From Metabacillus indicus LMG 22858 (lineage in GTDB: Bacteria; Bacillota; Bacilli; Bacillales; Bacillaceae): a stretch of DNA of 64,000 bases. The notes under the pieces are model-generated. The model saw only the letters and a program-made list of their open reading frames with translations. It had not been told where the DNA came from and made no database searches. Within the stretch, counting starts at the first letter, position 1. Each line of letters begins with the position of its first letter. This document shows, one piece after another, positions 8,566 through 63,080 of this stretch. The translations under genes were made by a program, and so were the position numbers. The stretch lies in the NCBI RefSeq assembly GCF_000708755.2, contig NZ_JGVU02000002.1:1612001-1676000 (forward strand), given 5' to 3'.

Positions 8566-8877
8566 TTATGACCCTTCAAACAATCCCCTTCTTGATCAAG
8601 AGTCATTTCTTGTTTAGTTATAACCCTTCACACAATCTCCCTTCTGATGAAGGGTCATATCTTAACCACTTATGACCCTTCGCACGATCCTACTCTTGAT
8701 AAACGGTTATATCTTATCCACTTATAACCCTTCACACAATCTCCATCCTGATAAAGGGTCATTTCTTTTCCACTTATGACCCTTCACACGATCCCACTCT
8801 TGATAAACGGTCATATCCTGTTTACTTATAACCCTTCACACAATCTCCATCCTGATAAAGGGTCATATCTTATGCAC
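8566..8877. repeat. Tandem array 1: six 52-bp units
   Basis: Units begin with TTAT[GA]ACCCTTC at 8566, 8618, 8670, 8722, 8774 and 8826, exactly 52 bp apart. Two unit types alternate (TTATGACC... and TTATAACC...), giving a 104-bp higher-order period. Each unit contains inverted arms ATGACCCTT and AAGGGTCAT about 20 bp apart. The array fills the space between the convergent PBP and acsA genes and has no plausible reading frame. Confidence 0.95.
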
Positions 8878-8939
8878 TTCCTCCAGATAATGGGTCAGCA
8901 CAACTCTCAAAACCAACTACAAAAATCCTTCCCAACAGA

Positions 8940-8976
8940 AAAAATCCGAACTAATTACCTCAGTTCGGATTTTCTT
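8940..8976. terminator. acsA terminator (bidirectional)
   Basis: AAAATCCGAACT pairs with AGTTCGGATTTT around a 9-base loop, with T-runs on both strands. It lies 16 bp past the acsA stop. Confidence 0.85.
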
Positions 8977-8991
8977 TGCTCTATTCGTTCT

Positions 8992-10710
8992 TTAATCTTC
9001 CATCGTCGACAAATCACCTGTCGGCAGATCAAGTTCCCATGCTTTCAGGACGCGGCGCATGATTTTTCCGCTGCGTGTTTTAGGCAGCTTGTCGCGGAAT
9101 TCGATTTCGCGAGGTGCCGCGTGTGCAGCAAGGCCTTTTTTGACGAAGTTGCGGATTTCCTCTTTAAGTTCATCCGTCGCCTCGTAGCCGTCGCGAAGGG
9201 CGACAAACGCCTTGATGATTTCGCCGCGGACAGGATCAGGTTTGCCGATGACGCCTGCTTCTGCAATGGCAGGGTGTTCGACAAGCTTGCTTTCCACTTC
9301 AAACGGCCCAACTCTCTCCCCTGAAGTCATGATGACATCATCAATTCTTCCCTGGAACCAGTAGTAACCGTCCTCATCTTTATAGGCAGAGTCGCCTGAT
9401 ACATACCAGTCGCCCGGCATGAAATAGGATTCGTACTTTTCTTTGTTGTTCCAGATCGCATGCATCATGGAAGGCCAGCCCTTTTTAATGGCAAGGTTGC
9501 CCATGCGGTACGGCGGAACTTCATTTCCCTGATCATCCACTATGGCAGCCTGGACGCCTGGAATCGGCTTGCCCATAGAGCCCGGTTTGATTTCCATGGA
9601 CGGGTAGTTGCAAATTACCTGCGCGCCTGTTTCCGTCATCCACCACGTATCGTGGATCCTGTTATCAAACACTTTTACTCCCCATCTGACAACTTCAGGA
9701 TTAAGAGGCTCTCCGACACTCAAAACATGTCTTAATGAGCTTAAATCATATTGTTTAACGAGTTCGTCTCCTGCTCCCATCAGCATGCGGAAGGCAGTCG
9801 GCGCACTGTACCATACGGTAACGCCATAGTTTTGGATCGTTTCATACCAATGCTCCGGCTTAAATCTGCCTCCAACGATGACATTGGATGCACCGTGAAG
9901 CCATGGTCCGAAAATGCCGTATACTGTACCCGTTACCCAGCCTGGATCTGCTGTGCACCAGTAAACGTCATCTTCCTTCAGGTCAAGCACCCAGCTGCCT
10001 GTCTGGTAATGCTGGACCATCGCCTGATGGACATGAAGCACACCTTTAGGTTTTCCTGTTGAACCGGACGTATAATGAAGAAGAAGTCCGTCCGTCTTTT
10101 CTACCCATTCTATTTCGAGCTTCGTGCTAGCGGTTTTTATTCTTGTAAGGAAATCTATGTACGGACCATCTTCATTTACATTTTCTCCAACTAATACAAC
10201 ATGCTTTAAAGCAGGCAGATCGTTGAACGGAACACGCTCAAGAAGTTCAGGCGTTGTCACGATGACTTTAGCCTCGCTGTCTTTCAGGCGGTCGCTTACT
10301 GCCCCCTCCATGAATGCCTCAAATAATGGACCAACGATGGCGCCCAGTTTGATGGCTCCAAGGACAGTAAAATAAAGCTCGGGCGTTCTCGGCATGAAGA
10401 CAAACACTCTGTCGCCTTTTTCAACATCTGCACATTGGCGGAGAATATTCCCTGCTTTATTTGAGTGTTCTTTCATTTCTTTAAACGTATACTTCTCTTC
10501 TCTTTCAGGGTCCCGGTAGTACAAGGCAACCTTGTTCTTCCGGAAAGATTCTGCATGTTTGTCAATTGCTTCGTATGCAGCATTGATTCTTCCTGTTTCC
10601 GACCACGAGAGGTTTTTTTCTGCCTCAGACCAGTCAAAATGGTCATAGGTTTTTTGGTAGTCTTCAAGATTGTGGTTCCCCTTTGCTGCTGGCAGCGCTT
10701 CCAACTTCAT
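8992..10710 (-). CDS. acsA: Acetyl-CoA synthetase
   Basis: 572 residues, the length of B. subtilis AcsA. The adenylate-forming P-loop YTSGSTGKPKGV and the C-terminal core SGDSAYKDEDGYYWFQGRIDD are clear. The lysine acetylated by AcuA lies in PKTRSGKIMRR near the C-terminus. It converts acetate, ATP and CoA to acetyl-CoA. The ATG at 10710 follows AGGGGG; the longer frame (to 10773) would start inside the -35 box. It is divergent from acuABC, whose products switch its activity off and on. Confidence 0.97.
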   Translation of the reverse strand: MKLEALPAAKGNHNLEDYQKTYDHFDWSEAEKNLSWSETGRINAAYEAIDKHAESFRKNKVALYYRDPEREEKYTFKEMKEHSNKAGNILRQCADVEKGDRVFVFMPRTPELYFTVLGAIKLGAIVGPLFEAFMEGAVSDRLKDSEAKVIVTTPELLERVPFNDLPALKHVVLVGENVNEDGPYIDFLTRIKTASTKLEIEWVEKTDGLLLHYTSGSTGKPKGVLHVHQAMVQHYQTGSWVLDLKEDDVYWCTADPGWVTGTVYGIFGPWLHGASNVIVGGRFKPEHWYETIQNYGVTVWYSAPTAFRMLMGAGDELVKQYDLSSLRHVLSVGEPLNPEVVRWGVKVFDNRIHDTWWMTETGAQVICNYPSMEIKPGSMGKPIPGVQAAIVDDQGNEVPPYRMGNLAIKKGWPSMMHAIWNNKEKYESYFMPGDWYVSGDSAYKDEDGYYWFQGRIDDVIMTSGERVGPFEVESKLVEHPAIAEAGVIGKPDPVRGEIIKAFVALRDGYEATDELKEEIRNFVKKGLAAHAAPREIEFRDKLPKTRSGKIMRRVLKAWELDLPTGDLSTMED

Positions 10711-10744
10711 CTTAATTCCCCCTTGTTCAGTGTATACATCCTCT

Positions 10745-10773
10745 ATTATAGAACAGTTTCTATCTTTTCTCAA
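10745..10773 (-). promoter_or_regulatory. SigA promoter of acsA
   Basis: Leftward -35 TTGAGA (10768-10773), 17-bp spacer, -10 TATAAT (10745-10750). The start would be near 10738, giving a leader of about 28 nt. Confidence 0.75.
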
Positions 10774-10799
10774 TTTTTAAAAAAATCCTGGTTTTTTCG

Positions 10800-10813
10800 T
10801 GTAAACGCTTCAT
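10800..10813. promoter_or_regulatory. Candidate cre (CcpA) site between acsA and acuA
   Basis: TGTAAACGCTTCAT matches the cre pattern TGNAANCGNWNNCW except near its 3' end. It sits about 16 bp upstream of the likely acuA -10 box (TATAAT 10830-10835) and about 60 bp upstream of the acsA start. Glucose repression of acsA and acuABC through CcpA is known in B. subtilis. Confidence 0.55.
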
Positions 10814-10872
10814 TTTCTATTTTTTCTAGTATAATAGATGATAGTTCAGCAGATTAAAAAGGCGGTGAATGA

Positions 10873-11505
10873 ATGGAACACCCGAAAACGTACAACGCAA
10901 AAGAGATAAAAACTCCGTTTGGCCCCCTTATTATCGAAGGACCCATTAAGCCTGAAAAACTGGCAGGACTTGAATTTCACAAGGATCTGACCGCCTTCAG
11001 GCAGCCTGAGCAGCAGCATAAGGCACTGGTCGAAATAGCGGGACTTCCGGAAGGCCGGATTATTATTGCAAGAAATCGCCATACCATTGTCGGGTATGTT
11101 ACATATTTGTATCCTGATCCTCTTGAAAGATGGTCAGAAGGTAAGATGGAAAATTTGATTGAACTCGGTGCGATTGAAGTCATACCTGAATTCCGGGGCT
11201 TCTCTGTGGGGAAAAATCTTCTGAGAGTTTCGATGATGGATGATGCCATGGAGGATTATATCACCATTACAACCGAGTACTACTGGCACTGGGATTTAAA
11301 AGGAACCGGGCTGAATGTATGGGAATACAGGAAAGTCATGGAGAAGATGATGAATGCAGGCGGCCTTGAATGGTATGCGACAGATGAACCTGAAATCAGC
11401 TCTCATCCTGCAAACTGCCTAATGGCGAAAATAGGGAAAAGAGTCGATCAGGACTCCATTCAGCAGTTTGACCAATTGAGATTCAAAAACCGCTTTATGT
11501 ACTGA
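10873..11505 (+). CDS. acuA: AcuA, GNAT protein acetyltransferase acting on AcsA
   Basis: 210 residues, as in B. subtilis. The GNAT fold is recognisable from IIARNRHTIVGYVTYLYPD, then LIELGAIEVIPEFRGFSVGKNLLRVSM (the acetyl-CoA-binding motif around residues 100-120). In B. subtilis AcuA acetylates the catalytic lysine of acetyl-CoA synthetase and inactivates it. It is the first gene of acuABC with a GGCGGTGA ribosome site. A TATAAT at 10830-10835 is its probable -10. Confidence 0.95.
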   Translation: MEHPKTYNAKEIKTPFGPLIIEGPIKPEKLAGLEFHKDLTAFRQPEQQHKALVEIAGLPEGRIIIARNRHTIVGYVTYLYPDPLERWSEGKMENLIELGAIEVIPEFRGFSVGKNLLRVSMMDDAMEDYITITTEYYWHWDLKGTGLNVWEYRKVMEKMMNAGGLEWYATDEPEISSHPANCLMAKIGKRVDQDSIQQFDQLRFKNRFMY

Positions 11506-11544
11506 TATGTTTCGTTCATGCTTTAAAACAAAGGGGTAATAAGA

Positions 11545-12189
11545 ATGATCGTCGAACAAATCATGAATAAAAACGTCGTTACGCTTCAGCCGGATGCAAC
11601 CATTGCTGAAGCCATTGAAAGAATGGCTGAACACCGAATCCGCCATATTCTTATTGTGTCAGGAAACGACATGCTCGCAGGCATCGTTTCAGATAGGGAC
11701 ATAAAGGATGCGAGTCCTTCCATATTCGAACTGACCAATGACCGGGAAACGCTGAATAAACCGCTCAAATCCATCATGAAAACAGATGCGATTACCGGAC
11801 ATCCGCTTGATTTTGTCGAAGAAATCTCGTCTATATTCTATGAGCATAAAATTGGATGTCTGCCGATCATCAAGCACGGAAAGCTAGTGGGGATTGTGAC
11901 AGAAACGGATCTTCTCCATACATTCGTTCAGCTGACAGGCGCTGACCAGCCCGGCTCTCAGATTGAAGTAAAAGTTCCGAATGTATCAGGAGTTCTTTCA
12001 GAAGCAGCTGCTGTTTTCAGCAGGCACAATGTGAATATATCGAGCGTGCTGGTTTATCCTGATCAGGACGAACGGTTTAAGATCCTCGTCTTCAGAGTTC
12101 AGACAATGAATCCGATGCCTTTAATTGAGGAGCTTGATAAAGAAGGCTATACCGTTCTGTGGCCAAATGTACCGGGGATTTCGTCATGA
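11545..12189 (+). CDS. acuB: AcuB, tandem CBS-domain plus ACT-domain protein
   Basis: 214 residues. Two CBS domains (about 1-60 and 75-130, [26 protein letters not shown] and [11 protein letters not shown]) are followed by an ACT domain (~140-214, [29 protein letters not shown]). CBS pairs usually bind adenine nucleotides and ACT domains bind amino acids, so it may sense energy state. Its role in acetate/acetoin metabolism is unresolved. Its stop overlaps the acuC start (ATGA), implying translational coupling. Confidence 0.95.
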
Positions 12190-13358: not shown

Positions 13359-13366
13359 ACCTGAAA

Positions 13367-13397: not shown

Positions 13398-13400
13398 TAC

Positions 13401-22939: not shown

Positions 22940-25765
22940 TCAGTAAACACTTCTTTCCTGCATGCTTTCTAAATCCTGCTCTGTAATCAGCACTTCACGG
23001 GGCTTGCTTCCCCTTGCCTCCGAAATAATGCCCTGCTTTTCCATCATATCCATTAATCTGGCAGCGCGGTTATAGCCGATTCTGAATCTTCTCTGCAGGC
23101 TGGAGGTTGAAGCTCCTCCCTGATCAACGATGTATTCACACGCTTCTAAAAGCAGCTCATCCTCATCGTTCTCAATGCTTGATTTTCTCATTAATTCTTC
23201 CTGTTCGAACAAAAAGACAGGCTTCATTTGATTTCTGACATGGCCTACTACCCGCTCAATTTCTTCATCCGATACAAAGTTCCCCTGCAGTCTGACTGCC
23301 TTTGATGTTCCGTTTTCAAGGAACAGCATATCCCCTTTGCCAAGCAGCTTTTCTGCCCCGGCTGCATCAAGAATCGTGCGTGAGTCTACTTGAGAGGAAA
23401 CCGAGAACGCAATTCTTGTCGGAATATTTGATTTGATCAGACCCGTAATAACATCAACGGATGGTCTTTGAGTAGCCACAATTAGATGGATCCCGCAGGC
23501 TCTTGCTTTCTGGGCAATTCTGCAGATGGATTCTTCGACATCGGCAGGCGCAGCCATCATTAAATCCGCCAGCTCATCAATCACAATCACCAAGTAAGGC
23601 ATATGTTCACCTGAATTGTGCTTGGCTGCAAGCTCATTGTAGCGTGAAATATCCCTCGCTCCTGCATGGGCAAACAGCTCATATCTGCGTTCCATTTCTT
23701 CTACTGCCCATCTCAGCGCACCTGTGGCGGCTTTCACATCTGTGATGACCGGGCTGACTAAATGGGGAACATTCTGATACGGAGCAAGCTCCACCATTTT
23801 AGGGTCAATCAGCATCAGCTTCACTTCATGCGGCGAGGCTTTATACAGCAGGCTCACAAGGATCGTATTGATGCAGACGCTTTTTCCTGAGCCGGTTGCA
23901 CCCGCAATCAGTCCGTGGGGCATTTTTTTCAAATCGGTCACGACAGCCTGGCCGGATATATCCAGTCCAAGAGCTGCTGTAAGAGGCGACTGGCTGTTTA
24001 TGAAGTCGGGACTTCTCAGAATTTCTCTCAGGTACACCATTTTGCTGTGTCTGTTCGGCACCTCGATGCCTATCCGGTTCTTCCCTGGTATCGGCGCTTC
24101 GATGCGGATATCCTTGGCAGAAAGACTAAGCTTTATGTCATCTGTCAGATTTGTAATTTTGTTGACTTTAACACCCGGCTCCGGCTGCACCTCAAGACGT
24201 GTTACAGCAGGTCCCTGTGTCACGTGAACAACTTTTGCTTTGACATTGAAATTCTCAAGTGTCATATTCAGCAGCTGTGTCTGCTCTCTCAGCCATTCCG
24301 TGTCATCGACAATTTCCTTTGGGGGAATATTCAAAAGCTGGAGAGACGGAAATGCATAAGCAGAGCCCCCAGGCGCGCTCTGATTTCTTTGCGCTTTTTG
24401 CTTATCGCGCCCGAACATCATCACATTGAATGGAACCGTTGACCTCCTGCTCCCGCTGTTTCCTTGCTCCTGAACTTTTCCTGCTTCAGGCTTTGTTTCT
24501 TCGGAAAGCTCTAATCCAGCCTCCTGCTGCGGGTTCTGAGCAGATCTGTTTTCCTCATGGACGTTTAAATTCCGCACATCCTGGAAAAGAGAGGCAGGAC
24601 GCTCTCGGTTTCCTGCTTCCTGTTCAGATTTTACTTCTGGTTCAAATTCTAATTCTGATTCAGATTTCAATTGTGGTTCATCAATAACTTCTTGTTCAAA
24701 TTCCAATTCTGGCTGAGCTTTCACTTCTGGCACAGATTCTAATTCTGGTACAGCTGTTTCTTCTGCTTTAGATTCGCGTTCTGTTTCCAGCGCAGGAATT
24801 GATTCAAGTGACGCTGCAGTCTCGTGCACATCGGGCTCTTCAGGCTGCCCTGACTGGGATGGCTCATACAGTTCGGACACTTCATCCTCTTCCATTGATA
24901 GAGCAGGAGCTGCTTCTTTAAAGGCTGAAGATTGCTCTTTCGCTCGGTCTATAGGACGAATGACATCAGACCTTGTTTCATGTTCTTCCTCTTCCATTGA
25001 AGCTGCTGACTCTCTGAAGCTTCGGGGCTGTTCACTCACTTGATCAGAAGTGTGCAGATCCTGTTTTTTCTCTTCCTTGCGATATCCGAATGAGAACGTT
25101 TCAGGTTTATGATTTTGGTGTTTATGCAAAGCTGACACTTCAGGTCGGCCCGGCTTATCCTGTGATGTTGCTTCATCAGGGATAGACCCTGAACGTGCCT
25201 TTAGCCGGTCTGCTTCTTTTTTCAGCATTTCATGATTCTGCTGATGAAGCCTTGAAATGACAGATTCTGCAGCCTTTGCTTCCTGCTGATAGCTTTGAAA
25301 CAGCGTAGTTCCCGTTTCACGTCCGCCGTCCTGACTGACCCGGCTGTTAAACGGACCCTGGTTGTCTCTTGATCTGTATCCGTAAATCGGAGAAGGAATT
25401 TCTGTCGGACTGAATGTTTTTTTAACAGGCTTGCTGTCTGTTTTTTTCAAAGCTTGCCCTGCAGGCTTTTTTGGCGCGGCAGGAGCTTTCCTTTCCGTTT
25501 TTGCAGCAGGTCTTCTTGGTTCTGTCCGGCTGTTCTGCTGGTCTGGAATGACCGGAAATTTAAAATTCCCTTTCGGGTACTGATAGGCGATTTTTGCATC
25601 TGCATTTTTCGTATTGGCAGCCGGCTGCTTCATTTGAGCCGGTGCATTATGTACAGGCGGAAGCTGTTCAGGCAGCTGCCTGCTTTCGGCTGATCTTTTT
25701 TCCAATTGCTTATCTTCTTCTGTTTCACCAGTAAAATAATTGATCATTTTAGAAAACCAACTCAT
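22940..25765 (-). CDS. sftA: DNA translocase SftA (FtsK/SpoIIIE family)
   Basis: 941 residues. Unlike SpoIIIE it has no N-terminal transmembrane helices; a ~460-residue disordered linker rich in Glu, Pro and Gln precedes the motor. The motor has Walker A GATGSGKS (~620), Walker B-type LMLIDPKMVELAPY and VIVIDELADLMM, then a C-terminal gamma domain (GGASTSSLQRRFRIGYNRAARLMDMME) that reads chromosome orientation. It clears DNA from the division septum during growth. The ATG at 25765 follows AAAGAGTGG; a TTG six codons upstream is less likely. The linker contains repeats of Glu-rich ELE(S/F) units. Confidence 0.95.
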   Translation of the reverse strand: MSWFSKMINYFTGETEEDKQLEKRSAESRQLPEQLPPVHNAPAQMKQPAANTKNADAKIAYQYPKGNFKFPVIPDQQNSRTEPRRPAAKTERKAPAAPKKPAGQALKKTDSKPVKKTFSPTEIPSPIYGYRSRDNQGPFNSRVSQDGGRETGTTLFQSYQQEAKAAESVISRLHQQNHEMLKKEADRLKARSGSIPDEATSQDKPGRPEVSALHKHQNHKPETFSFGYRKEEKKQDLHTSDQVSEQPRSFRESAASMEEEEHETRSDVIRPIDRAKEQSSAFKEAAPALSMEEDEVSELYEPSQSGQPEEPDVHETAASLESIPALETERESKAEETAVPELESVPEVKAQPELEFEQEVIDEPQLKSESELEFEPEVKSEQEAGNRERPASLFQDVRNLNVHEENRSAQNPQQEAGLELSEETKPEAGKVQEQGNSGSRRSTVPFNVMMFGRDKQKAQRNQSAPGGSAYAFPSLQLLNIPPKEIVDDTEWLREQTQLLNMTLENFNVKAKVVHVTQGPAVTRLEVQPEPGVKVNKITNLTDDIKLSLSAKDIRIEAPIPGKNRIGIEVPNRHSKMVYLREILRSPDFINSQSPLTAALGLDISGQAVVTDLKKMPHGLIAGATGSGKSVCINTILVSLLYKASPHEVKLMLIDPKMVELAPYQNVPHLVSPVITDVKAATGALRWAVEEMERRYELFAHAGARDISRYNELAAKHNSGEHMPYLVIVIDELADLMMAAPADVEESICRIAQKARACGIHLIVATQRPSVDVITGLIKSNIPTRIAFSVSSQVDSRTILDAAGAEKLLGKGDMLFLENGTSKAVRLQGNFVSDEEIERVVGHVRNQMKPVFLFEQEELMRKSSIENDEDELLLEACEYIVDQGGASTSSLQRRFRIGYNRAARLMDMMEKQGIISEARGSKPREVLITEQDLESMQERSVY

Positions 25766-30006: not shown

Positions 30007-31080
30007 TTATGAGTTTTGTTTAATAGTAGTTACAGTCGACTGGTCACAGGCTTTCACAAGCTTAACGATCAGTTCCTTTGCTGCAGCGTAATCATCAATG
30101 TGCACAATGGATGCTGCCGTGTGAATGTAGCGTGAGCAAATGCCCACAACGGCAGACGGGACACCATCGTTTGATGTATGCACTCGTCCTGCATCTGTAC
30201 CACCCTGGGAAACAAAGTACTGATACGGAATATTGTTTGATTCTGCCGTATCCAAAACAAATTCGCGCATTCCTCTGTGAGTGACCATCGTGCGGTCAAG
30301 GATGCGAAGAAGCGCACCTTTTCCGAGCTGGCCGAATTCATGCTTTGCTCCGCTCATGTCGTTTGCAGGACTTGCATCAAGTGCAAAGAATAGATCCGGA
30401 CGAATCATGTTCGCAGCTGTCTGTGCTCCCCTTAAACCAACTTCTTCCTGTACAGTCGCTCCGGAATAAAGCGTATTCGGAAGGGTAACATCTTTCAGCT
30501 CTTTCAAAAGTTCAATTGATAAACCGCAGCCGTAGCGGTTATCCCACGCCTTTGCCATAATTTTTTTCGGATTGGCCATCGGCGTAAATGGACAAACAGG
30601 AAGAATCTGCTGGCCAGGTCTAATGCCCAGAGCTTTCGCATCTTCATCAGAATCAGCACCAATATCAATCAGCATATTTTTGATTTGCATCGGTTTATTA
30701 CGCTGGTCTTCGCTGAGCAAGTGTGGCGGAATGGAACCAATCACTCCCGGAACAGGTCCCGCATCCGTGATAACCTCCACACGCTGCGCAAGCAGAACCT
30801 GGCTCCACCAGCCTCCAAGCGTCTGAAAACGCAGCATTCCGTTTTTCGTAACACCCGTCACCATGAAACCCACTTCATCCATGTGGCCGGCAACCATAAT
30901 CCTCGGACCTTCCTCACTGCCCCGCTTCACCCCGAAAATACTGCCGAGACGGTCCTGAATGATCTCATCTGAATACTTGGTGAGCTCAGAACGCATAAAC
31001 TTTCGTACAGCATGCTCATTCCCCGGCGCACCCGGAAGCTCCGTCAATGTCTTAAAAAGCTCTAACGTCTCTTGATTCAT
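30007..31080 (-). CDS. ytoP: M42-family aminopeptidase YtoP
   Basis: 357 residues, M42 glutamyl-aminopeptidase/cellulase-M family. Zinc-site segments are visible: [41 protein letters not shown] (catalytic Glu) and [10 protein letters not shown], with the late His in [11 protein letters not shown]. It forms tetrahedral dodecamers in relatives and degrades peptides in the cytoplasm. It leads a pair with the DUF84 gene. Upstream lie repeat copy B and tandem array 2, which separate it from divergent ytzB. Confidence 0.94.
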
Positions 31081-31286: not shown

Positions 31287-31834
31287 GTTAAAAACACTTT
31301 CCCTTGTGCATCAGCCAGAGTTTGCGCTGCTAAATCCAGTTATGAACACTTTCCCCCTCAAACTTCCCAGAGTTTCTGCTGCTAACCCCAGTTATGAACA
31401 CTTACACCCGCAAACCAACCAAAGTTTCTGCTGCTAAATCCAGTTAAGAACACTTTACCCTGCAAACCAACCAAAGTTTCTGCTGCTAAATCCCGTTAAG
31501 AACACTTTCCCCTGCAAACCAACCAAAGTTTCTGCTGCTAAATCCCGTTAAGAACACTTTCACCCGCAAACCAATCAGAGTTTCTGCTGCTATATCCAGT
31601 TATGAACACTTTCCCCCGCAAACTACCCAGAGTTTCTGCTGCTAACCCCAGTTATGAACACTTTCACCCGCAAACCAACCAGAGTTCCTGCTGCTAAATC
31701 CAGTTAAGAACACTTTCACCCGCAAACCAACCAGAGTTTCTGCTGCTACATCCAGTTAAGAACACTTTCACCCGCAAACCACCCAGAGTTTCTGTTGCTA
31801 ATTCCAGTTATGAACACTTCCCCCGCAACCATCC
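31287..31834. repeat. Tandem array 2: ten and a half 52-bp units
   Basis: Units start with GTTA[TA]GAACACTTTC-like sequence at 31287, 31339, 31391, 31443, 31495, 31547, 31599, 31651, 31703, 31755 and 31807 (partial), each exactly 52 bp apart. Conserved parts are GAACACTTT and AGTTTCTGCTGCTAA. GAACACTTT can pair with AAAGTTTC with one bulge. The array lies between divergent ytoP and ytzB. Confidence 0.95.
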
Positions 31835-31922
31835 TTAATCATTTCTCTCCACCCTCCTGCTTAACAACAGAAGGCATTTTCTGTATACTTAAAACATCGT
31901 GTACAGGATGGAGGAGATTGTG

Positions 31923-32234
31923 ATGAATGGCAGAAAAGTACTGATAGGAATCGGGATTGGCCTGGCCGCTGCATATCTTTTCAGAGATCAATTGAAGCCG
32001 GCTTATATTTCTTCTGAAAAAGCACTGACGGCTGTGAAGAACGCGTTTAAAGAGAAAGGCCCTATTAATGGTTCATGGATTTATACGGTTCGTGAATCCT
32101 TTATTAATCAGGGGGAATCCTACAGCATCTACAAGGCCGGCGTTACACGGATGGCAGGATCGGATCTTGAGCAGTACGAAGCATTTGTAGACGCAACAAA
32201 CGGAAATATCCTGCATGTTGAACAAATTGCATAA
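31923..32234 (+). CDS. ytzB: YtzB, small PepSY-domain protein
   Basis: 103 residues. A short hydrophobic N-terminus (VLIGIGIGLAAAYLF) is followed by one PepSY domain (SSEKALTAVKNAFKEKGPINGSWIYTVRE... YEAFVDATNGNILHVEQIA). PepSY domains are thought to inhibit peptidases or bind peptides at the cell surface. The ATG at 31923 is 8 bp after GGAGGAG; the frame upstream adds eight codons over the ribosome site. It is convergent with ytnP. Confidence 0.85.
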   Translation: MNGRKVLIGIGIGLAAAYLFRDQLKPAYISSEKALTAVKNAFKEKGPINGSWIYTVRESFINQGESYSIYKAGVTRMAGSDLEQYEAFVDATNGNILHVEQIA

Positions 32235-33171: not shown

Positions 33172-33203
33172 TTAAAAAAGCCCAGGATTGATCTCCTGAG
33201 CTA
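33172..33203 (-). terminator. trmB terminator
   Basis: Leftward GCTCAGGA and TCCTGGGC arms with a TTTTTT tail; the stem overlaps the trmB stop codon. Confidence 0.8.
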
Positions 33204-33842
33204 CTTTCTGAATTTCACTTCCGAGCGGTAGATCCGCTGGCCTTTATTTGAAAATTTTTCTTCGTATTCAGTCATAATGTTGCCCTCAAACTCACTGCTG
33301 TGCAGGTCAAGGCTTACAAAAGTCAGAAGCAGGCCGTATTCTGAAAAGCTTCTAAGCGAATATTCAAACAGCCCCTGATTATCTGTTTTAAAGTGAATTT
33401 CTCCCTCTTCCACCAGAATATCCTGGTATCTTTTCAAAAAGGTTTTGTACGTCAGTCTCCGCTTTTCATGCCTTGTTTTTGGCCAAGGATCAGAAAAATT
33501 CAGGTAAACTCTGTCCACTTCACCTTCTGCAAAAAGGTCTGTCAGGTCTTCAGCGTTTTCATTAAGCAGGAAAAGGTTTTCACACTCTGATTCAACCGCT
33601 TTTTGAAGGGCTGCGACAATAACGCTTTGAGATAATTCAATCCCGATATAGTTAATATCAGGGTTTGCTTTTGCCATTCCTGTTACGAACTGGCCTTTGC
33701 CTGTTCCCACTTCAATATGGATAGGATTTTCGTTTCCAAAAAGCTTGCTCCACTTTCCTCTTTGTTCTTTAGGATTCTGTATTGCAATATGTGAATGCCC
33801 GGCAATGTAGTCATTTGCCCAAGGCTTGTTTCGCTGTCGCAT
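33201..33842 (-). CDS. trmB: tRNA (guanine-N7)-methyltransferase
   Basis: 213 residues, as in B. subtilis TrmB. The SAM-binding motif is [17 protein letters not shown]. The family signature is [26 protein letters not shown], and the C-terminus [15 protein letters not shown] is typical. It methylates G46 in the tRNA variable loop. The ATG at 33842 is preferred; 21 codons upstream are non-conserved. Array 3 lies upstream. Confidence 0.96.
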
Positions 33843-34024
33843 CAAGCACACCTCTGTCCATGTAATGTCGGATAAAAGGGTATCACGAAACGGTCCTGGG
33901 TGCAAGAAAATCTGGTGGACTGATTAACAGAATTTGTGAGAAAAGTCCGTGCAATTGTGCCGGCATATATTGTGCAGCAGCAGTGATCATAATGGCACCA
34001 CTTGTTTTATATTCATCAGGGTTT

Positions 34025-34341
34025 TGTGGCATCACTCCGCTTAATGCTGCCACTTTTCATATTCTCAACAGCCTCTTTGTGGCACCACTCCGCCAAGTGA
34101 CGCCACTTTTCACTTTCTCAACAGCCTCTTTGTGGCACCACTCCGCCTAATGACGCCACTTCTCTCATTCCCAACAGCCTCTTTATGGCATCACTCCGCC
34201 CAGTGACGCCACTTCTAACATTTTAACCAGCCTCTTGTGGCACCTCTCCGCCTAGTGACGCCAATTTTCACTTTCTCCACAGACTCTTTGTTGCACCTCT
34301 CCACCCAGTGACACCACTTCTCACATTCCCATCGGCCTTTC
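34025..34341. repeat. Tandem array 3: six units of 52-53 bp
   Basis: Units start with TGTGGCA[CT]CACTCCGCC at 34025, 34078, 34131, 34184, 34236 and 34289 (steps 53, 53, 53, 52, 53). Each contains a compact inverted repeat GTGGC-N3-ACT ... AGT-N3-GCCAC. A decayed unit may precede at about 33991. The array lies between divergent trmB and ytzH. Confidence 0.92.
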
Positions 34342-34402: not shown

Positions 34403-34469
34403 ATACGGGCGGAATGAAAACAGCGTCTCCTGCGCAAATTAAGAGAAGAATTTGCAAAGGAGGCTTTTT

Positions 34470-34748
34470 ATGCCGCTTAAATACGAGAATCAAGTTGAGT
34501 TGTTAAAGGATATTCTGTCAGAGCACCAGAGTGACTGCTGCGGAACGGTTGCTGAATGCGAGCAGCTTGAGCGCGTGGTGAAATCTTTAATGGTTCATGC
34601 TGATGTGCATCAGGATTTAAAGGGTGTCCTGCAATCGATTTATTCGTACAGCCAGGACGGAAAAAATTCCCCTGAACTGAATTCATATATTACGTCTCAG
34701 CAAAATGTGCTGTCACAATGGATCAGCGACATTGATTCGTTTTCTTAA
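34470..34748 (+). CDS. ytzH: YtzH-like small protein
   Basis: 92 residues, the length of B. subtilis YtzH: MPLKYENQVELLKDILSEHQ, then CCGTVAECEQLERVVKSL and a helical C-terminus. It is soluble, acidic and probably helical; the function is unknown. The ATG at 34470 follows AAAGGAGG. Its stop overlaps the ytmP stop by 4 bp in a tail-to-tail arrangement, so a ytmP transcript would be antisense to this gene up to the terminator at 34370. Confidence 0.88.
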   Translation: MPLKYENQVELLKDILSEHQSDCCGTVAECEQLERVVKSLMVHADVHQDLKGVLQSIYSYSQDGKNSPELNSYITSQQNVLSQWISDIDSFS

Positions 34749-52766: not shown

Positions 52767-52797
52767 AAAAAAGCAGGCTCCGTGGCCTGCTTTTTCT
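52767..52797 (-). terminator. leuS terminator
   Basis: Leftward GAAAAAGCAGGC, loop CACG, GAGCCTGCTTTTTTC, right after the leuS stop. Confidence 0.85.
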
Positions 52798-55211
52798 TAG
52801 TTCGCTACAATATTTACAAGTTTTCCAGGAACGGCAATGATTTTGCGTATTGTTTTTCCGTCAACCTGTTCTTTCACGTCAACATCTGAAAGAGCAAGCT
52901 CCTGCATTTCTTCGCGTGTTGCGTCTTTTGGAACGTGGAGTTTCGCTTTTACTTTCCCGTTTACCTGAACAACGATTTCCACTTCGTCCTCAACTAATTT
53001 GCCTTCGTCGTATGCAGGCCATGTTTCATAGGAGACTGTTCCTTCGTGGCCAAGCTTTTCCCATAATTCCTCAGCAAGGTGAGGAGCTACCGGTGAAAGC
53101 AATTTAACGAAGCCTTCCATATATGACTTTGGAAGAACTGTTGCTTTGTACGCCTCATTAATGAAAACCATCAGCTGGGAGATCGCTGTGTTGAAACGCA
53201 GTCCTTCGTAATCCTCTGTTACTTTTTTAACGGTTTGATGATACACACGCTCTAAGCTGTCAGATGGGCTGTCAGTCACTTTTGCATTAAGAGCTCCGTT
53301 ATCTTCTACGAACAGACGCCATACACGGTCAAGGAAACGGCGAGCTCCGTCAAGTCCTTTTTCAGACCAGGCGATAGAAGCCTCAAGAGGTCCCATGAAC
53401 ATTTCGTAAAGGCGAAGCGTATCTGCACCGTGGCTTGCAACGATATCATCCGGATTGACAACATTGCCTTTGGATTTACTCATTTTTTCGTTGTTTTCCC
53501 CAAGAATCATTCCCTGGTTAAACAATTTCTGGAACGGCTCTTTTGTAGGAACAATGCCAAGATCGTACAGCACTTTATGCCAGAAGCGCGCATACAGCAA
53601 ATGAAGAACCGCATGTTCCGCACCGCCGATGTATGTGTCAACAGGCAGCCACTGCTTGATTTTTTCAGGATCTGCAAGGTGCTCAGCGTTCTTTGGATCA
53701 ATATAGCGCAGGTAGTACCAGCAGCTTCCGGCCCATTGCGGCATTGTGTTTGTCTCGCGTCTGCCTTTTTTGCCTGTTGCAGGGTCTGTTACGTTTACCC
53801 ACTCTTCAATAACGGCAAGCGGAGATTCGCCTGTGCCTGAAGGACGGATTTCTGTCGTTTTCGGCAGTGTCAGAGGAAGCTCTTCCTCAGGTACTGCTGA
53901 CATTGTGCCGTCTTCCCAATGAATAATCGGAATCGGCTCACCCCAGTAGCGCTGGCGGGAGAACAGCCAGTCACGAAGACGGTAAGTCGTTTTCTTTTCG
54001 CCCTTTTTGTTTGTTTCAAGCCATGCAATCATGTTTTCAATGGCTTCTTCTTTATTTAAGCCGTTGAGGAAATCAGAGTTCACATGCTGTCCGTCGCCTG
54101 TATAAGCTTCATTTTCAACATTGCCGCCTTCAACAACCTCTTTGATCGGCAGGTCGAACATTTTTGCAAATTCATAGTCTCGCTCGTCGTGTGCAGGAAC
54201 AGCCATAATTGCGCCAGTTCCGTAGCTTACAAGAACGTAGTCTGCAATCCAGATCGGCATTTTTTCGCCGTTTGCAGGGTTAACAGCAAACGCACCTGTG
54301 AATACTCCTGTTTTTTCTTTCGCAAGATCTGTCCGTTCAAGATCACTCTTGCTTTTTACTTTATCAAGATAAGCTGCTACAGCATCCTTTTGGTCTTCTG
54401 TTGTAATTTTATCAACTAAAGCATGCTCGGGAGCAAGGACTGCATACGTCGCCCCAAAGAGCGTATCCGGACGTGTTGTGAAAACAGTAAAGGATTCTTC
54501 ATGTCCGTCAACGGTAAACTGAACGTGCGCTCCTTCAGAACGGCCGATCCAGTTGCGCTGCATTTCCTTGATGCTCTCAGGCCAGTCAACTTCTTCAAGG
54601 TCCTCAATTAAGCGGTCTGCATATGCCGTGATTTTCAGCATCCATTGTTTCATCGGGCGGCGTTCAACAGGATGGCCTCCGCGCTCGCTCTTTCCGTCGA
54701 TGATTTCTTCATTTGCAAGGACGGTTCCAAGTGCAGGACACCAGTTGACCGCTACCTCATCAACATAAGCAAGACCTTTTTTATATAACTGAAGGAAAAT
54801 CCATTGTGTCCACTTGTAGTATTCAGGATCTGTCGTATTAATTTCACGGTCCCAGTCATATGAAAATCCGAGGCTTTGAATCTGACGGCGGAACGTATCA
54901 ATGTTTTTGGCTGTAAACTCTGCAGGGTCATTCCCAGTATCAAGCGCGTATTGCTCAGCAGGAAGACCGAATGCATCCCATCCCATCGGATGAAGGACGT
55001 TATATCCCTGCATGCGTTTTACGCGGGAAAGAATGTCAGTTGCTGTAAAACCTTCCGGATGTCCGACATGAAGGCCCGCCCCTGATGGATACGGAAACAT
55101 GTCAAGTGCGTAAAATTTAGGCTTGCCGGCATCTTCCGTTGTTTTGAACGTCTTATTTTCAAGCCAGTAGTTCTGCCATTTCTTCTCGATTTTTTCGTGC
55201 TTGTAATTCAT
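52797..55211 (-). CDS. leuS: Leucyl-tRNA synthetase
   Basis: 804 residues, as in B. subtilis. The class I signature HVGH is at 48-51 ([16 protein letters not shown]). A CP1 editing domain includes [13 protein letters not shown], the KMSKS loop is [15 protein letters not shown], and the C-terminus is [21 protein letters not shown]. It charges tRNA-Leu. Two ATGs (55214, 55211) are adjacent; 55211 lies 6 bp after AGGAGG. A T-box leader with a CUC specifier precedes it. Confidence 0.97.
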
Positions 55212-55284
55212 CATTATCCTCCTCTGATTGGTGCGCTGTTTCTACTAATTCAGTTTGAACGGGTTTTGGATTGTTAAACGGAGA

Positions 55285-55530
55285 AAACAGAAAAAACCTC
55301 CCGTCCCCGAAAGGGACGAGAGGTTTATTTCCCGCGGTACCACCCAATTTAGCGCCATACGGCACTCACTTGATATCCGTAACGTGGATCACGACAGACA
55401 TTACCGTGCAGGCTGCCCTGCAGTTCGCATCCGTAACTCAAAGGCGAGTTCGCAGGCATTGGATGATTGACTCTCACCGTCCGTCAATTCTCTGAGCATC
55501 CGCAGTCTGTTACTAATCCTTATCACCGTT
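55285..55530 (-). promoter_or_regulatory. T-box riboswitch of leuS (specifier CUC)
   Basis: The T-box TGGGTGGTACCGCGG lies at 55333-55347 on the minus strand, followed by the terminator AACCTCTCGTCCC/GGGACGGGAGGTT (55293-55328). The specifier in Stem I is CTC (Leu) at 55446-55448 in GCGAACTCGCC. Uncharged tRNA-Leu would induce leuS. Confidence 0.9.
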
Positions 55531-55553
55531 CAAAATCATAAAGTTATACATGT

Positions 55554-59485: not shown

Positions 59486-60173
59486 CAGGAACACCCTCTT
59501 CCTTCAATACGCCGTCCTGCAGCACAAATTTTCTGTCGCTGAATGCCGCTACTTCTTCATCGTGGGTAATGATGAAGAACGTGATGCCTTTTTCTGTGTT
59601 CAGCTCTTTGATGAGGTCAAGAATTTCTTTTTCCGTCTCACTGTCCAGACTTCCTGTCGGTTCATCAGCCAGAATGATTTCAGGATTTGTAATCAGGGCA
59701 CGTCCAATTCCAACGCGCTGCTGCTGTCCCCCTGACAGCTCGTTTGGATAATGGCCCGAATGGTTATCAAGACCGATTCTGTAAAGCATTTCGGTTACCT
59801 TCGTTTTTCTTGCAGAAGAAGGAACTCCCTTCAACGTTAATGGCAGTTCAATGTTTTCAAACGTCGTCAGACTCGGGATGAGCTGAAAACTTTGAAAAAT
59901 GAAGCCAAACGTATCAAGCCTGAAGGCTGCCCATTCTTTTTCACTGAACCCGGTCACCTCTGTGCCGCCGACAGTAATTTTCCCCTCTGTCGGGGCGATA
60001 TAGCCTGAAACTAAATTGAGAAGCGTTGATTTCCCCGAACCGCTCCTGCCGACGATTGAAGCGATTTCCCCTTTTTGAATGGCAAGCGATACATTTTTCA
60101 AAACAGGTATTTCTTTTTCATTTCCTTTTTTTCCAACCTTAAACGAGTGACTTAATCCATCAACTTTTATCAT
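59475..60173 (-). CDS. ytrE: YtrE, ABC ATPase of the LolD/MacB class
   Basis: 232 residues. Walker A GRSGSGKST is at 42-50, the Q-loop FIFQSFQLIPSLTTFENI, signature LSGGQQQRVGIGRAL, Walker B IILADEPTGSLD and H-loop FFIITHDEEVA are all intact. It is the partner of YtrF. MacB-class pumps use ATP to drive mechanical movement rather than classical transport. It lies 11 bp after the permease gene upstream. Confidence 0.95.
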   Translation of the reverse strand: MIKVDGLSHSFKVGKKGNEKEIPVLKNVSLAIQKGEIASIVGRSGSGKSTLLNLVSGYIAPTEGKITVGGTEVTGFSEKEWAAFRLDTFGFIFQSFQLIPSLTTFENIELPLTLKGVPSSARKTKVTEMLYRIGLDNHSGHYPNELSGGQQQRVGIGRALITNPEIILADEPTGSLDSETEKEILDLIKELNTEKGITFFIITHDEEVAAFSDRKFVLQDGVLKEEGVPVEI

Positions 60174-60184
60174 GATTTCCTCTC

Positions 60185-61174
60185 CTAGGAATGCTTTGTT
60201 TTTTTATATATGAGGAAGTAGCCCAGCAGCAGACTTACGGCTGCCCCGGCAGCGCCTCCGGTTACAAATCCTGTTATGCCTTGATCATACATTCGGTATC
60301 CCATTGAACTGAATCCAAGCACCCCAAGCAGCAGCACCAAGATCAGAATAGGTAGATTAAGATGTTTCCATAAAAAGAAATTGCCGTTCCTTTCATTCGG
60401 ATGATGCAGGAATGAATACAGTCCAATCCCAAAGAATAATACACCCATCGCTGCCTGGATCAAAAAGTAAAGGGGCATTCCCTCCGTTAGTTCCTTGAAA
60501 AAAGGCAAGCTCATCATTGGAAGAAACGGTGTCAAAAGACATCCCGCATTAATGAAATTCTCGATTTCTGCATAGGAGTATAATCCAAGGCCTTCTACAT
60601 GGTTAAAGACAACAAATGTAAACAGAAACGGCAGCGAGCCGGTGCTCAGAGCCGTCAGCCCCTGCGCAAATGGCGTTCCCGTAAGCGAACCCGCTGCAAA
60701 GGTCAAGCTGTAAACCATCACCAGGCAGAAAAACAATTCCAAATAATAATCCATTAACGGTTCAGACAGGGCCACGCCTGCCGTCTCTGTGTAGATTCCT
60801 GACAGCACAAGCGAAATCAGTGACGAAAGCAGGATTGCAATAAGAACAGAAGCAGATTTCACAAGATAAATTTCTGAACGTTTAAATGGCAGACCAAGTG
60901 TATAATCCATTGTACCCCTGGCTCTCTCCGTTCCCATTTGCGCGATTGCGATGAAAAACAGGAAAGCAGCTGATAAAATCAGGAGCAAATCGTCTCCTAA
61001 GGGATAAGTAAATGGATCAGTCGACAACTCGGGATAATCCTTCAGCATGTTTAAAAAGCTCGAATGTTCGGACCAAATTCTATAAGGAAGAAAAAAGGCA
61101 TTAAGAAGAAAAAATAAAACAAGCAGGACTCTGATCTGTCTTAACTCTTTTAGAAATAAAGCACGCACTACCAT
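60185..61174 (-). CDS. YtrC/YtrD-like ABC permease
   Basis: 329 residues with about seven transmembrane helices (for example VLLVLFFLLNAFFL, LLLILSAAFLFFIAIAQMG and SASVLIAILLSSLISLVLSGIY) and the ABC-2 type motif MGTERARGTMDYTLGLPFKRSEIYLVK. B. subtilis has two paralogous permeases, ytrC and ytrD; this operon has only one, so YtrB probably works with a homodimer. The start overlaps the ytrB stop by 7 bp. Which paralog it represents cannot be decided. Confidence 0.9.
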   Translation of the reverse strand: MVVRALFLKELRQIRVLLVLFFLLNAFFLPYRIWSEHSSFLNMLKDYPELSTDPFTYPLGDDLLLILSAAFLFFIAIAQMGTERARGTMDYTLGLPFKRSEIYLVKSASVLIAILLSSLISLVLSGIYTETAGVALSEPLMDYYLELFFCLVMVYSLTFAAGSLTGTPFAQGLTALSTGSLPFLFTFVVFNHVEGLGLYSYAEIENFINAGCLLTPFLPMMSLPFFKELTEGMPLYFLIQAAMGVLFFGIGLYSFLHHPNERNGNFFLWKHLNLPILILVLLLGVLGFSSMGYRMYDQGITGFVTGGAAGAAVSLLLGYFLIYKKTKHS

Positions 61175-62046
61175 CTTCGGTCCCCTCCAAACTTTGCAAT
61201 AAATACTTCCTCTAAGTTAACCGGGAGCGTATTCCAGACTTTAGGACCGAGAGATTGAAGCCGCTTCATCTTATCTTCATCCTTTTTTTCCAGAAGCATC
61301 GTGTAAAAAATACCGGAGTGCTCAAGAATCGGAACACCCATTTCTCTAATCTTTAAGTGCAGGTCATTTTCAAAAACAGCCTGTATTTTCACAAAATCCT
61401 CCCGGAGCGATTCAAGGTCCATCACATTGGACAGAGTATGGCCATCCAGAAAACCGATCTTGCTGCAGATCCTTTCAATATCCTCAAGCCTGTGGGATGT
61501 AATCAGAATGGCGGTTTCTCTTTCACCCACTTCATCCACCATAAGCTGCAGGAGATCTCTTCTTGTGACAGCATCAATTCCGTCAGTCGGCTCATCAAGC
61601 AAAATGACTGCAGGTCTTGAAGCAAAGGCCATAATGAGAGCAAACTGTTTCTTCAGCCCCGTTGATAAATCCCTGTATTTTTTTGTTTCAGGTATACCGT
61701 AGCGGTTCATCAGCTCGTTTGCATAGGTGACATCAAAATCCGGATACAGGGATTTCAGCATTCCTGACAGTTCTTTATATGTATATCTATCATAAAAAGG
61801 GTTTTGGACAGGTACATAAATAACCTTTCTTTTAGCCAGGGGCTGCTTCTTTATGGAGGCATTTTCAAACAAAACTTCTCCCTCATCCGGCAGCACAATC
61901 TGCTGAATAATCCGCAGAAGCGTCGTTTTTCCCGAGCCGTTTCTGCCCAGAAGCCCAAAGATATCGCCTTTTTCAATCGTCAGCGATACGTCCTCCAGCA
62001 CCCTCACTCCATCGAGCGATTTTGAGAGATTTTTCAGTTCAAGCAT
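61168..62046 (-). CDS. ytrB: YtrB, ABC ATPase
   Basis: 292 residues. Walker A GRNGSGKT is at 34-41, signature DLSTGLKKQFALIMA (STGL variant instead of LSGG), Walker B PAVILLDEPTDGID, and H-loop LITSHRLEDIE. A ~70-residue C-terminal extension is typical of GntR-linked ABC-2 exporters. It pairs with the permease directly downstream. Its start overlaps ytrA by 8 bp. In B. subtilis the operon is strongly induced by cell-wall antibiotics that bind lipid II. Confidence 0.95.
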   Translation of the reverse strand: MLELKNLSKSLDGVRVLEDVSLTIEKGDIFGLLGRNGSGKTTLLRIIQQIVLPDEGEVLFENASIKKQPLAKRKVIYVPVQNPFYDRYTYKELSGMLKSLYPDFDVTYANELMNRYGIPETKKYRDLSTGLKKQFALIMAFASRPAVILLDEPTDGIDAVTRRDLLQLMVDEVGERETAILITSHRLEDIERICSKIGFLDGHTLSNVMDLESLREDFVKIQAVFENDLHLKIREMGVPILEHSGIFYTMLLEKKDEDKMKRLQSLGPKVWNTLPVNLEEVFIAKFGGDRRW

Positions 62047-62428
62047 GGTCTCCGCCTCTCATTTCTCTGCTGATTTCCTCAATCCATTTGTGAATGACTT
62101 CAATGTCAATTCCCGCATAAACGGCATCTACAATCAGCGGCTTCAATTGTTCTTTGATCATCTCCATCTTCCCTTCATCAAGCGTTACTCCGGCATTCTC
62201 GGAGACAAAAGTCCCCCTGCCCCTTAACGTTTCAATCATTCCTTCACGTTCAAGCTCTTTATATGCTTTGCTTACGGTATTAGGGTTTGCAATAATCATC
62301 GTTGAAAGCTCGCGCACAGACGGGAGCTTTTCACCGGGCTTAAGAATTCCTTTCAGACAGAGCTCTTTCATCTGCTGAATGATCTGTTCATAAATCGCTT
62401 TTGAGCTGCGCGGGTCAATTTGAATCAT
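62039..62428 (-). CDS. ytrA: YtrA, GntR-family repressor of the ytr operon
   Basis: 129 residues, the short YtrA subfamily of GntR: MIQIDPRSSKAIYEQIIQQMKELCLKGILKPGEKLPSVRELSTMIIANPNTVSKAYKELEREGMIETLRGRGTFV is the winged HTH, followed by a ~50-residue dimerisation region and no large effector domain. It represses its own operon through the operator at 62468-62492. An AAGGGAG site precedes the ATG. Confidence 0.95.
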   Translation of the reverse strand: MIQIDPRSSKAIYEQIIQQMKELCLKGILKPGEKLPSVRELSTMIIANPNTVSKAYKELEREGMIETLRGRGTFVSENAGVTLDEGKMEMIKEQLKPLIVDAVYAGIDIEVIHKWIEEISREMRGGDHA

Positions 62429-62467
62429 CGGTCTCCCTTCTTCCTATCGTGAAATGGTTCTGTACTA

Positions 62468-62492
62468 CGTGTATTAGTTTTGGTAGTACACT
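62468..62492. promoter_or_regulatory. YtrA operator
   Basis: On the minus strand AGTGTA, 13 bp, TACACG. This is one base from the AGTGTA-N13-TACACT operator described for B. subtilis YtrA. It covers the predicted transcription start (near 62490). Confidence 0.8.
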
Positions 62493-62496
62493 TAAT

Positions 62497-62525
62497 ACAA
62501 TAATTGTTTTTGTAATTATTGTCAA
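62497..62525 (-). promoter_or_regulatory. SigA promoter of ytrA
   Basis: Leftward -35 TTGACA (62520-62525), 17-bp spacer, -10 TATTGT (62497-62502). Confidence 0.75.
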
Positions 62526-62589
62526 TGGATTTTTGGGGAATTTTGGGAGTGTTTTTTGTGTTTGGGGTATCAAAACGCGGAATTTATTT

Positions 62590-63080
62590 TTGATGGAACT
62601 ATTACCGGGGTTCGGTGCCATCAACACGCAGACTTTCCAGGTTGATGGCACTTATCTCGGAGTTCAGTACCATCAACACGCACTATCCTTTTTTTGATGA
62701 CACTTATCTCGGAGTTCGGAACCACCAACACGCAGATTTCCTCTTTTGATGGAACTTATCTCGGAGTTTGGAACCATCAACACGCAGATTTCCTTTTTTG
62801 ATGGAACTTAACTCGGAGTTCAGAACCACCAACACGTAGATTTCCTCTTTTGATGGCACTTATCTCGGAGTTCAGATCCACCAACACGCAGATTTCCTTT
62901 TTTGATGGCACTTATCTCGGAGTTCAGTACCATCAACACGCACTATCCTTTTTTTGATGACACTTATCTCGGAGTTCGGAACCATCAACACGCACTATCC
63001 CTTTTTTAATGGCACTTATCTCAGAGATCAGAACCATCAAAATGCACAATTCCTTTTTTGATGGCACCAAACCTCCAGCA
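62590..63080. repeat. Tandem array 4: nine full and one partial 52-bp unit
   Basis: Units start TTGATGG or TTGATGA at 62590, 62642, 62694, 62746, 62798, 62850, 62902, 62954, 63006 and 63058, exactly 52 bp apart. Each has 7-bp inverted arms TTGATGG and CCATCAA with inner ACT/AGT. Unit 2 and unit 7 are nearly identical, as are units 3 and 8, pointing to a block duplication of five units. The array lies between the ytr promoter and the 53-residue gene. Confidence 0.95.

Follow-up and report, generated by a model that had tools for sequence, protein, structure and literature searches.

Intergenic tandem arrays of several sequence families share a period of about 52 bp in Metabacillus indicus and its relatives

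Why should tandem arrays built from different units repeat at the same length? The question is raised by a 64,000-nucleotide stretch of the Metabacillus indicus LMG 22858 genome (contig NZ_JGVU02000002.1, positions 1,612,001 to 1,676,000; here called the window), in which four intergenic arrays have periods of 52, 52, 53, and 52 bp by Tandem Repeats Finder (TRF), at the places where an original prediction had put them (Table 1). That prediction took the four for unrelated sequences that had arrived at one period, through a shared generating mechanism or through selection for helical phase. We found that the pattern is real and strong and extends far beyond these four: the genome holds many intergenic arrays, similar in kind to the STAR and BIME elements of other bacteria and unusual in that several sequence families keep a constant period.

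We sampled 1.264 Mb (31%) of the 4.13-Mb genome (G000), including the window, and called arrays at a TRF score of at least 150. A period of 52 or 53 bp was observed in 46 of 58 arrays and in 45 of the 51 that were non-coding (without an open frame across the array); the remaining six non-coding arrays had periods of 122 bp (four arrays), 184 bp, and 226 bp. Within the 46 arrays, 255 of 265 unit-to-unit spacings were 52 or 53 bp (177 and 78, respectively). Given these counts of non-coding arrays and spacings, the period is not a product of chance. In a congener (G004; 0.8 Mb sampled), which keeps the order of the window over most of its length and is 92 to 95% identical to it over long aligned stretches, 35 of 43 arrays with a TRF score of at least 100, and 33 of 37 non-coding ones, had the same period. 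The original prediction had named a sharp 52-bp peak across differing units as its test and a broad distribution of periods as its refutation: the peak was strongly evident in both genomes, and the distribution in our sample was not broad. We rejected a coding repeat, since arrays taken with 45 bp on each side contained stops in all six frames in 45 of 46 cases and neither 52 nor 53 is a multiple of 3. CRISPR was likewise rejected: here the whole unit repeats, and there are no unrelated spacers between identical repeats.

Among the 46 arrays, average-linkage clustering distinguished six families, named A (12 arrays), B (11), C (8), D (5), E (6), and G (3), and left one array unassigned; single linkage chained the families together and was dropped. 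Family B repeats mostly at 53 bp, and families A, C, and D mostly at 52 bp. Arrays 1 to 4 of the window belong to families D, C, B, and A: the outer arms of array 1 resemble TGAAGGGT..ACCCTTCA, the arms of array 2 resemble GAAAGTGTTCTAA and TTAGCAGCAC, array 3 has the family B layout of 11-bp arms around a 6-bp center (GTGGCRYCACT n6 AGTGRYGCCAC), and array 4 has the family A form TTGATGGCACTTATC n5 GATnAGnACCATCAA. The consensus units of the four were no closer to one another than shuffled sequences are (six pairwise comparisons, P = 0.10 to 0.73). The spacings within array 3 were 53/53/53/52/53, just as the original prediction had it. In correction of that prediction, the four arrays are not isolated inventions: DNA searches of the genome with each window array returned relatives at other places.

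Units run head to tail, each composed of two inverted, conserved arms flanking a variable center and then a variable spacer. Arms and center measure about 15-5-15 bp in family A, with a 17-bp spacer, and D, E, and G are similar (family E aligns poorly, and not all of its members fit); the layout is about 34 plus 18 bp in family C and 11-6-11 plus 25 bp in family B. In the Sutcliffiella arrays described below, the dyad spans about 43 bp and the spacer 9 bp, as read from the units. Because palindrome spans differ in this way (28 bp in B, 34 to 35 bp in the others, about 43 bp in Sutcliffiella) while the period stays near 52 bp, the period does not follow from the palindrome span. Consensus units from 46 arrays of this genome and 20 of relatives had a mean palindrome score of 6.9, compared with 4.9 in shuffles, and 31 of the 66 exceeded the pooled shuffle 95th percentile. 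An inverted repeat had been predicted for every unit in the window. It is clear in arrays 1 and 4 (consensus scores, 7.8 and 8.2), slightly below the pooled 95th percentile of 6.8 in array 3 (6.6), and not significant in array 2 (4.0; shuffle mean, 4.9), a member of family C, whose dyad is weak and imperfect.

The arms are the part of the unit that lasts. We measured information between arrays of this genome only, for families A (11 of 12 arrays), B (10 of 11), C (8 of 8), and D (5 of 5), E and G being too small; ten named consensuses were excluded as poorly or mixedly aligned or as coming from other genomes. Outer arms carried 1.34 to 1.61 bits per position and spacers 0.13 to 0.25. Over 17 of the 18 orthologous same-family pairs from G000 and G004 (C2:1512466 was left out), differences were found at 13 of 238 positions in the outer arms (5.5%), 40 of 272 in the inner arms (14.7%), 27 of 82 in the center (32.9%), and 72 of 295 in the spacer (24.4%). 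By both measures, then, the arms are kept between loci and between species, and the rest of the unit changes fast. In five of six families, units resembled one another more within arrays than between them, with the center varying from array to array; identity within arrays over the palindrome was 0.70 to 0.87 by family, and TRF whole-unit matches ranged from 75 to 93% across the 46 arrays.

In a stem of RNA or single-stranded DNA, positions that pair would be expected to covary. To ask whether the arms pair with each other, we compared Watson-Crick pairs across the dyad with the number expected from column composition. Observed and expected counts were 1083 and 1139 in family A (103 units, 12 arrays), 555 and 580 in B (63 units, 11 arrays), 409 and 421 in C (54 units, 8 arrays), 355 and 352 in D (40 units, 5 arrays), and 106 and 109 in G (14 units). 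Mismatches of the G-U and A-C types on the family strand numbered 100 and 149 in A, 56 and 95 in B, 89 and 39 in C, and 71 and 32 in D. One type is thus 1.5- to 2.3-fold in excess in each family, in opposite directions between families and mostly at the few positions where the arms differ. Nor was there a clear bias in orientation: 26 arrays ran along the strand that holds most of the nearby genes, and 19 ran against it. Since the arms are conserved, pairing is not in excess in families A to D, the wobble excesses oppose one another, and orientation shows no clear bias, the dyad looks like two half-sites for a predicted protein on duplex DNA, each read alone, rather than like a hairpin; a strand-specific RNA is less likely. 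For families A to D we put the RNA hairpin low on the strength of the pairing and orientation results.

The arrays also have a preferred place among genes. According to a simple gene caller written for the purpose, convergent gaps hold 19 of the 46 arrays, tandem gaps hold 25, and divergent gaps hold 2, in a sample where 25,342 of 170,573 intergenic bases belong to convergent gaps and 43,147 to divergent ones. The two in divergent gaps are arrays 2 and 3 of the window, where Pfam supports the adjoining genes. A terminator-like hairpin precedes the array at 41 of 63 flanks facing gene 3' ends versus 6 of 29 facing gene 5' ends, and the median distance is 98 bp from stop codons and 160 bp from gene starts. 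Dyad sites are nearly confined to arrays. A scan of the 1.264 Mb, from which eight named consensuses had been excluded beforehand (poor or mixed alignment or other genomes), returned two matches elsewhere, one weak and inside a gene, the other a short remnant of family B that corresponds to 4.2 copies in G004.

Comparison of the array flanks found no common element end; what recurred there were terminator hairpins, repeats of 122 bp, and a small number of others. A similar hairpin (CCGAACT..AGTTCGG) adjoins 7 of 11 family B arrays, one D array, and one C array, and another is common to two E arrays and one A array, so that array and terminator may travel together. As to the longer repeats, a second tandem family with a period of 121 to 125 bp (GAAAAGCGGA ... 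GTCTAGCTCC) recurs across the genus. In this genome it is found at C2:1242004-1242259, C2:1268192-1268702, C6:83115-83399, and C6:296960-297294; it is also present in genomes G004, G001, G002, and G006, and a 122-bp array with a similar-looking stretch occurs at an Enterococcus termitis locus (L176).

Between the two close species, arrays are gained, lost, and replaced. For this mapping the TRF score was lowered to at least 100, and family matches were judged by reading the consensus. Among 23 arrays of M. indicus with flanks that map to G004, 18 have a counterpart of the same family and 2 a counterpart of a different one; for the other 3, TRF detected no counterpart, although one of these three G004 loci keeps leftover B-like units. 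Conversely, the 36 G004 arrays comprise 21 that are paired, 9 unpaired, and 6 without a mapped flank; in two of the nine, the M. indicus gap is of equal length or holds leftover units. Copy number differs between orthologous arrays as well (9.8 versus 21.1 in one example). Replacement can be seen at array 1, where the orthologous G004 gap holds a complete family B array in place of D; the short stretch like a family B half-site that adjoins array 1 in M. indicus may be the remnant of a B array. Array 1 itself alternates two versions of its unit, and a 104-bp higher-order repeat fits it better (85% matches versus 76% at 52 bp). At another site, C6:178655, the unit looks like a hybrid of A and C half-sites, possibly the result of recombination between families. 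Of nine sites compared for empty and filled junctions, eight gave printed junctions: two keep leftover units and six are truly empty. By eye, no target-site duplication was obvious, the ends of the insertions were blurred, and several sites differed in the neighboring terminator too.

Beyond this pair of species, similar periods recur. In the congeners G002 and G006 (280 kb each), two of three and five of eight non-coding arrays, respectively, repeat at 51 to 52 bp. The single non-coding array in each of two more congeners, G003 and G005 (80 kb each), does not, nor does the one in a further congener, G001 (47 kb), which has in addition a 52-bp array with a chance open frame. The surroundings of trmB in named Bacillota (80 loci, 1.59 Mb) contained 16 non-coding arrays, of which 5 repeat at 51 or 52 bp. 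Sutcliffiella horikoshii has two of these, and Robertmurraya yapensis, Bacillus sp. OK048, and an Alkalihalobacillus macyae metagenome-assembled genome have one apiece. These 51- to 52-bp arrays of Sutcliffiella, Robertmurraya, and others are built from other units. The Sutcliffiella unit family recurs throughout its genome (26 matches), and in the loci examined its arrays have a period of 52 bp (TRF score of at least 90); a second locus of this species, a 20-kb stretch recorded as Bacillus horikoshii (L141), contained no array. The sampled part of G004 holds members of all six M. indicus families.

We favor, as a plausible though still tentative reading, that the arrays are cooperative protein-binding sites with units about five helical turns apart. 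They would form a genome-wide set of intergenic, STAR- or BIME-like tandem elements, in which each unit of about 52 bp provides one dyad-symmetric site, made of two inverted half-sites that together cover about 28 to 35 bp in this genome, for a dimeric DNA-binding protein. Different families would be read by different, possibly paralogous, proteins. At 52 to 53 bp, or about five turns of 10.5 bp (52.5 bp), neighboring dimers would sit on one face of the DNA and could bind cooperatively. The resulting nucleoprotein cluster, mostly outside transcribed DNA, might serve in nucleoid organization or insulation. Copies would expand, contract, and be homogenized within an array by slippage or unequal exchange, while whole arrays come and go. 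The binding protein offered in the original prediction gains indirect support, in sequence terms, from the constraint on the arms and the lack of covariation in families A to D. Selection on helical phase, also proposed there, is consistent with spacings of 52 and 53 bp. However, other whole-turn periods (42 and 63 bp) are rare or missing, so phase alone does not explain 52 bp; either a fixed distance or inheritance of the period must come in besides.

Several observations weigh against this protein-array interpretation. The scarcity of whole-turn alternatives is one: among non-coding arrays, 42 and 63 bp are rare or absent, with a single 42-bp array, at the trmB loci. The protein that would bind the arrays is itself putative. 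The palindrome scores of 35 among the 66 consensus units stay within the shuffle 95th percentile. Pairing in family E is slightly above expectation (253 versus 242; 38 units, 6 arrays), for example at pair 8-28 (29 versus 19), possibly because the alignment mixes subfamilies, and family D, at expectation overall, has two central pairs above it (20 versus 16 and 12 versus 7). The wobble excess within each family could be read as a strand preference. Transcription may run into some arrays, because at 22 of 63 gene ends a terminator-like hairpin is missing ahead of them. That arrays are lost and replaced between closely related species shows that single ones are dispensable. Finally, A and B, like E and G, are weakly related, and the period may be inherited.

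Inheritance is the substance of the strongest rival account of the period, a substantial possibility although short of likely. One ancestral 52-bp array would have spread and diverged, with homogenization resisting indels and the period handed down, so that no ruler need act today. Family pairs A-B (z = 6.4) and E-G (z = 5.2), and less so D-E (z = 3.3), resemble each other beyond shuffles, which makes some common ancestry among the families likely as far as their sequences tell. Moreover, A, D, E, and G have one layout of about 35 plus 17 bp, and with spacer and center diverging by 24 to 33% between genomes that are about 92 to 95% identical, ancestry outside the arms would soon be erased. On the other hand, the majority of the 15 family pairs score as shuffles do, the period is kept in other layouts by family B (28 plus 25 bp) and by the family from Sutcliffiella (about 43 plus 9 bp), and the periods of sampled arrays are 51, 52, or 53 bp and seldom beyond. 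Descent of the four arrays from one recently diverged ancestor, which the original prediction had named as a ground for abandoning its view, was not borne out, in that most family pairs show no measurable likeness, although the three pairs just named do. Next in standing, and in our judgment rather unlikely, come selfish or neutral satellites, spreading by slippage or recombination without host function and keeping their arms for the array's own spread. The gain, loss, copy-number change, and family replacement seen between two close species would fit such elements, as would the near absence of single sites outside arrays and a preference for gaps where insertion possibly does the least harm (2 of 46 divergent). 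The two transposase and recombinase families searched do not track the arrays, however: Y1/RAYT transposases gave one match in G000 and none in G004, and tyrosine recombinases (PF00589) gave seven and three, of which two of the three in G004 are frames of 299 to 321 amino acids that we take to be XerC/XerD-like. Insertion with target-site duplication found no clear support at the printed junctions either.

Three further possibilities invoke particular machinery. BIME/REP-like elements, whose movement would depend on hairpins in DNA and on a RAYT (IS200/IS605-like) transposase, are suggested by the overall arrangement, since BIMEs too, in the material drawn on from PMC2817692, are intergenic clusters of regularly spaced imperfect palindromes that vary between strains. 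This explanation is very improbable and largely refuted: the arrays run head to tail rather than in alternation, hairpin covariation is missing in A to D, and RAYT mobilization was rejected because G004 carries arrays without a Y1 match. Arms of 11 to 15 bp around a center of 5 to 9 bp (11-6-11 in family B) would also suit the core sites of a tyrosine recombinase, with array size changing by site-specific recombination, and the greater likeness of units within than between arrays in five of six families agrees with this. Having rejected one dedicated recombinase per family, because G004 has six families and three PF00589 matches only, we give this idea very little credence. A transcribed structured RNA, with the unit as a hairpin of a 3' untranslated region or small RNA, could draw on the mean dyad symmetry above shuffles, the closeness of arrays to gene 3' ends, and the single wobble type in excess in each family. 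It is made highly improbable by the pairing and orientation results for A to D, by the terminator-like hairpins before most arrays that face gene 3' ends, and by the Rfam scan of the window, which matched two T-box leaders only and none of the four arrays. Searches for a plasmid or phage origin were negative: nothing similar to array 4 was found in plasmids, to array 2 in phages, or to the family A site in viral contigs.

Among known systems, STAR elements and BIME-2 are the nearest kinds, STAR being the nearest. In the parts of PMC3532100 considered, staphylococcal STAR elements are intergenic tandem repeats of about 50 nt with variable copy number and unknown function, built from a 14-bp GC-rich motif and a locus-specific spacer. 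The M. indicus arrays likewise are intergenic, of about that length, and composed of a conserved motif plus a locus-specific spacer. They differ in comprising six families where STAR has one motif, and in the dyad design and strict 52- to 53-bp period, neither of which those parts describe. The STAR motif TNTGTTGNGGCCC, repeated with 36 to 60 bp between copies, gave 0 matches in G000 and 150 other Bacilli genomes in a search that had no positive control. The BIME-2/REP clusters of enterobacteria (PMC2817692, seen in part) are strain-variable extragenic groups of regularly spaced imperfect palindromes that bind gyrase, IHF, and Pol I, and by analogy they may work similarly, as regular palindromic protein-binding arrays; REPs are linked to RAYT transposases and take alternating orientations, in contrast to the head-to-tail arrays here, with no arm covariation (A to D) and no Y1 match in G004. 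GTAG and CGTC repeats (PMC3733652, in the portion used) are again small, palindromic, and extragenic, the GTAG kind often clustered, but head-to-head dimers predominate and carry a terminal tag, whereas the present sites are head to tail, lie almost only in arrays, and show no common tag. A survey of prokaryotic satellites (PMC6749651) likewise concerns tandem arrays of constant repeat length; in its main text, neither "52 bp" nor "52-bp" occurs, and the Bacillus families listed in two of its passages have repeat lengths of 36 to 45. Searches of open-license papers yielded nothing that we recognized as an account of intergenic 52-bp arrays from relatives of Bacillus.

The positions and settings of the window arrays are collected in Table 1. 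By their probable kinship, the genes of the window resemble those of Bacillaceae. Three other features of the window were recorded. A helix-turn-helix regulator, an IrrE-like peptidase, and a phage-type integrase stand in a row at 1242-3392, resembling the edge of an integrative element. The two T-box leaders lie on the minus strand at 5200-5422 and 55309-55535, the latter upstream of a leucyl-tRNA synthetase gene (52797-55214). A degenerate 18-bp repeat is found at 24622-24753 within an FtsK/SpoIIIE-family gene.

Table 1. Window arrays with their settings, and associated sites (window positions unless a C-numbered site is given; gene strands in parentheses)
Feature	Position	Strand	Units	Family	TRF call	Gap	Adjoining genes (Pfam)
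Array 1	8566-8879		six of 52 bp	D	period 52, 6.0 copies	convergent	penicillin-binding protein 5553-8477 (+); AMP-binding enzyme 8992-10773 (-)
Array 2	31287-31834 (row prints)		~10 of 52 bp	C	31315-31828, period 52, 9.9 copies	divergent	M42 peptidase 30007-31080 (-); PepSY-domain 31899-32234 (+)
Array 3	34023-34341		six	B	34023-34328, period 53, 5.8 copies	divergent	Methyltransf_4 (trmB-like) 33201-33905 (-); ytzH-like 34452-34748 (+)
Array 4	62590-63080 (row prints)		~9 of 52 bp	A	62618-63067, period 52, 8.7 copies	tandem	GntR regulator 62039-62428 (-); DUF2524 63310-63615 (-)
Short stretch like a family B half-site, adjoining array 1	8522-8545	+					
Arrays beside terminator hairpins	C1:37546, C1:323862, C1:355476, C2:1471812, C6:82732, C6:115670, C6:246477						

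Intergenic tandem repeats of bacteria are often regarded as neutral debris or used as markers for typing. Here, families that differ in sequence, within one genome and across several genera, hold their repeat length to within about one base, and the arms alone are conserved. Extrapolated from 46 in 1.264 Mb to 4.13 Mb, about 150 arrays are expected genome-wide, enough to affect the whole chromosome. A wider proposal, on the unlikely side, is that they belong to a chromosome-organizing system common to several Bacillaceae lineages, in which a set of proteins would coat tandem sites five helical turns apart and change specificity fast. The 52-bp ruler would then stay constant because the protein lattice sets it, while families, and even the array at a given locus, are replaced. 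If true, bacteria would possess an analogue of satellite repeats, constant in length and fast-changing in sequence. The pattern makes it possible to ask whether a physical ruler, either protein lattice or helical phase, underlies the satellite arrays of bacteria, and by which protein they would be read.

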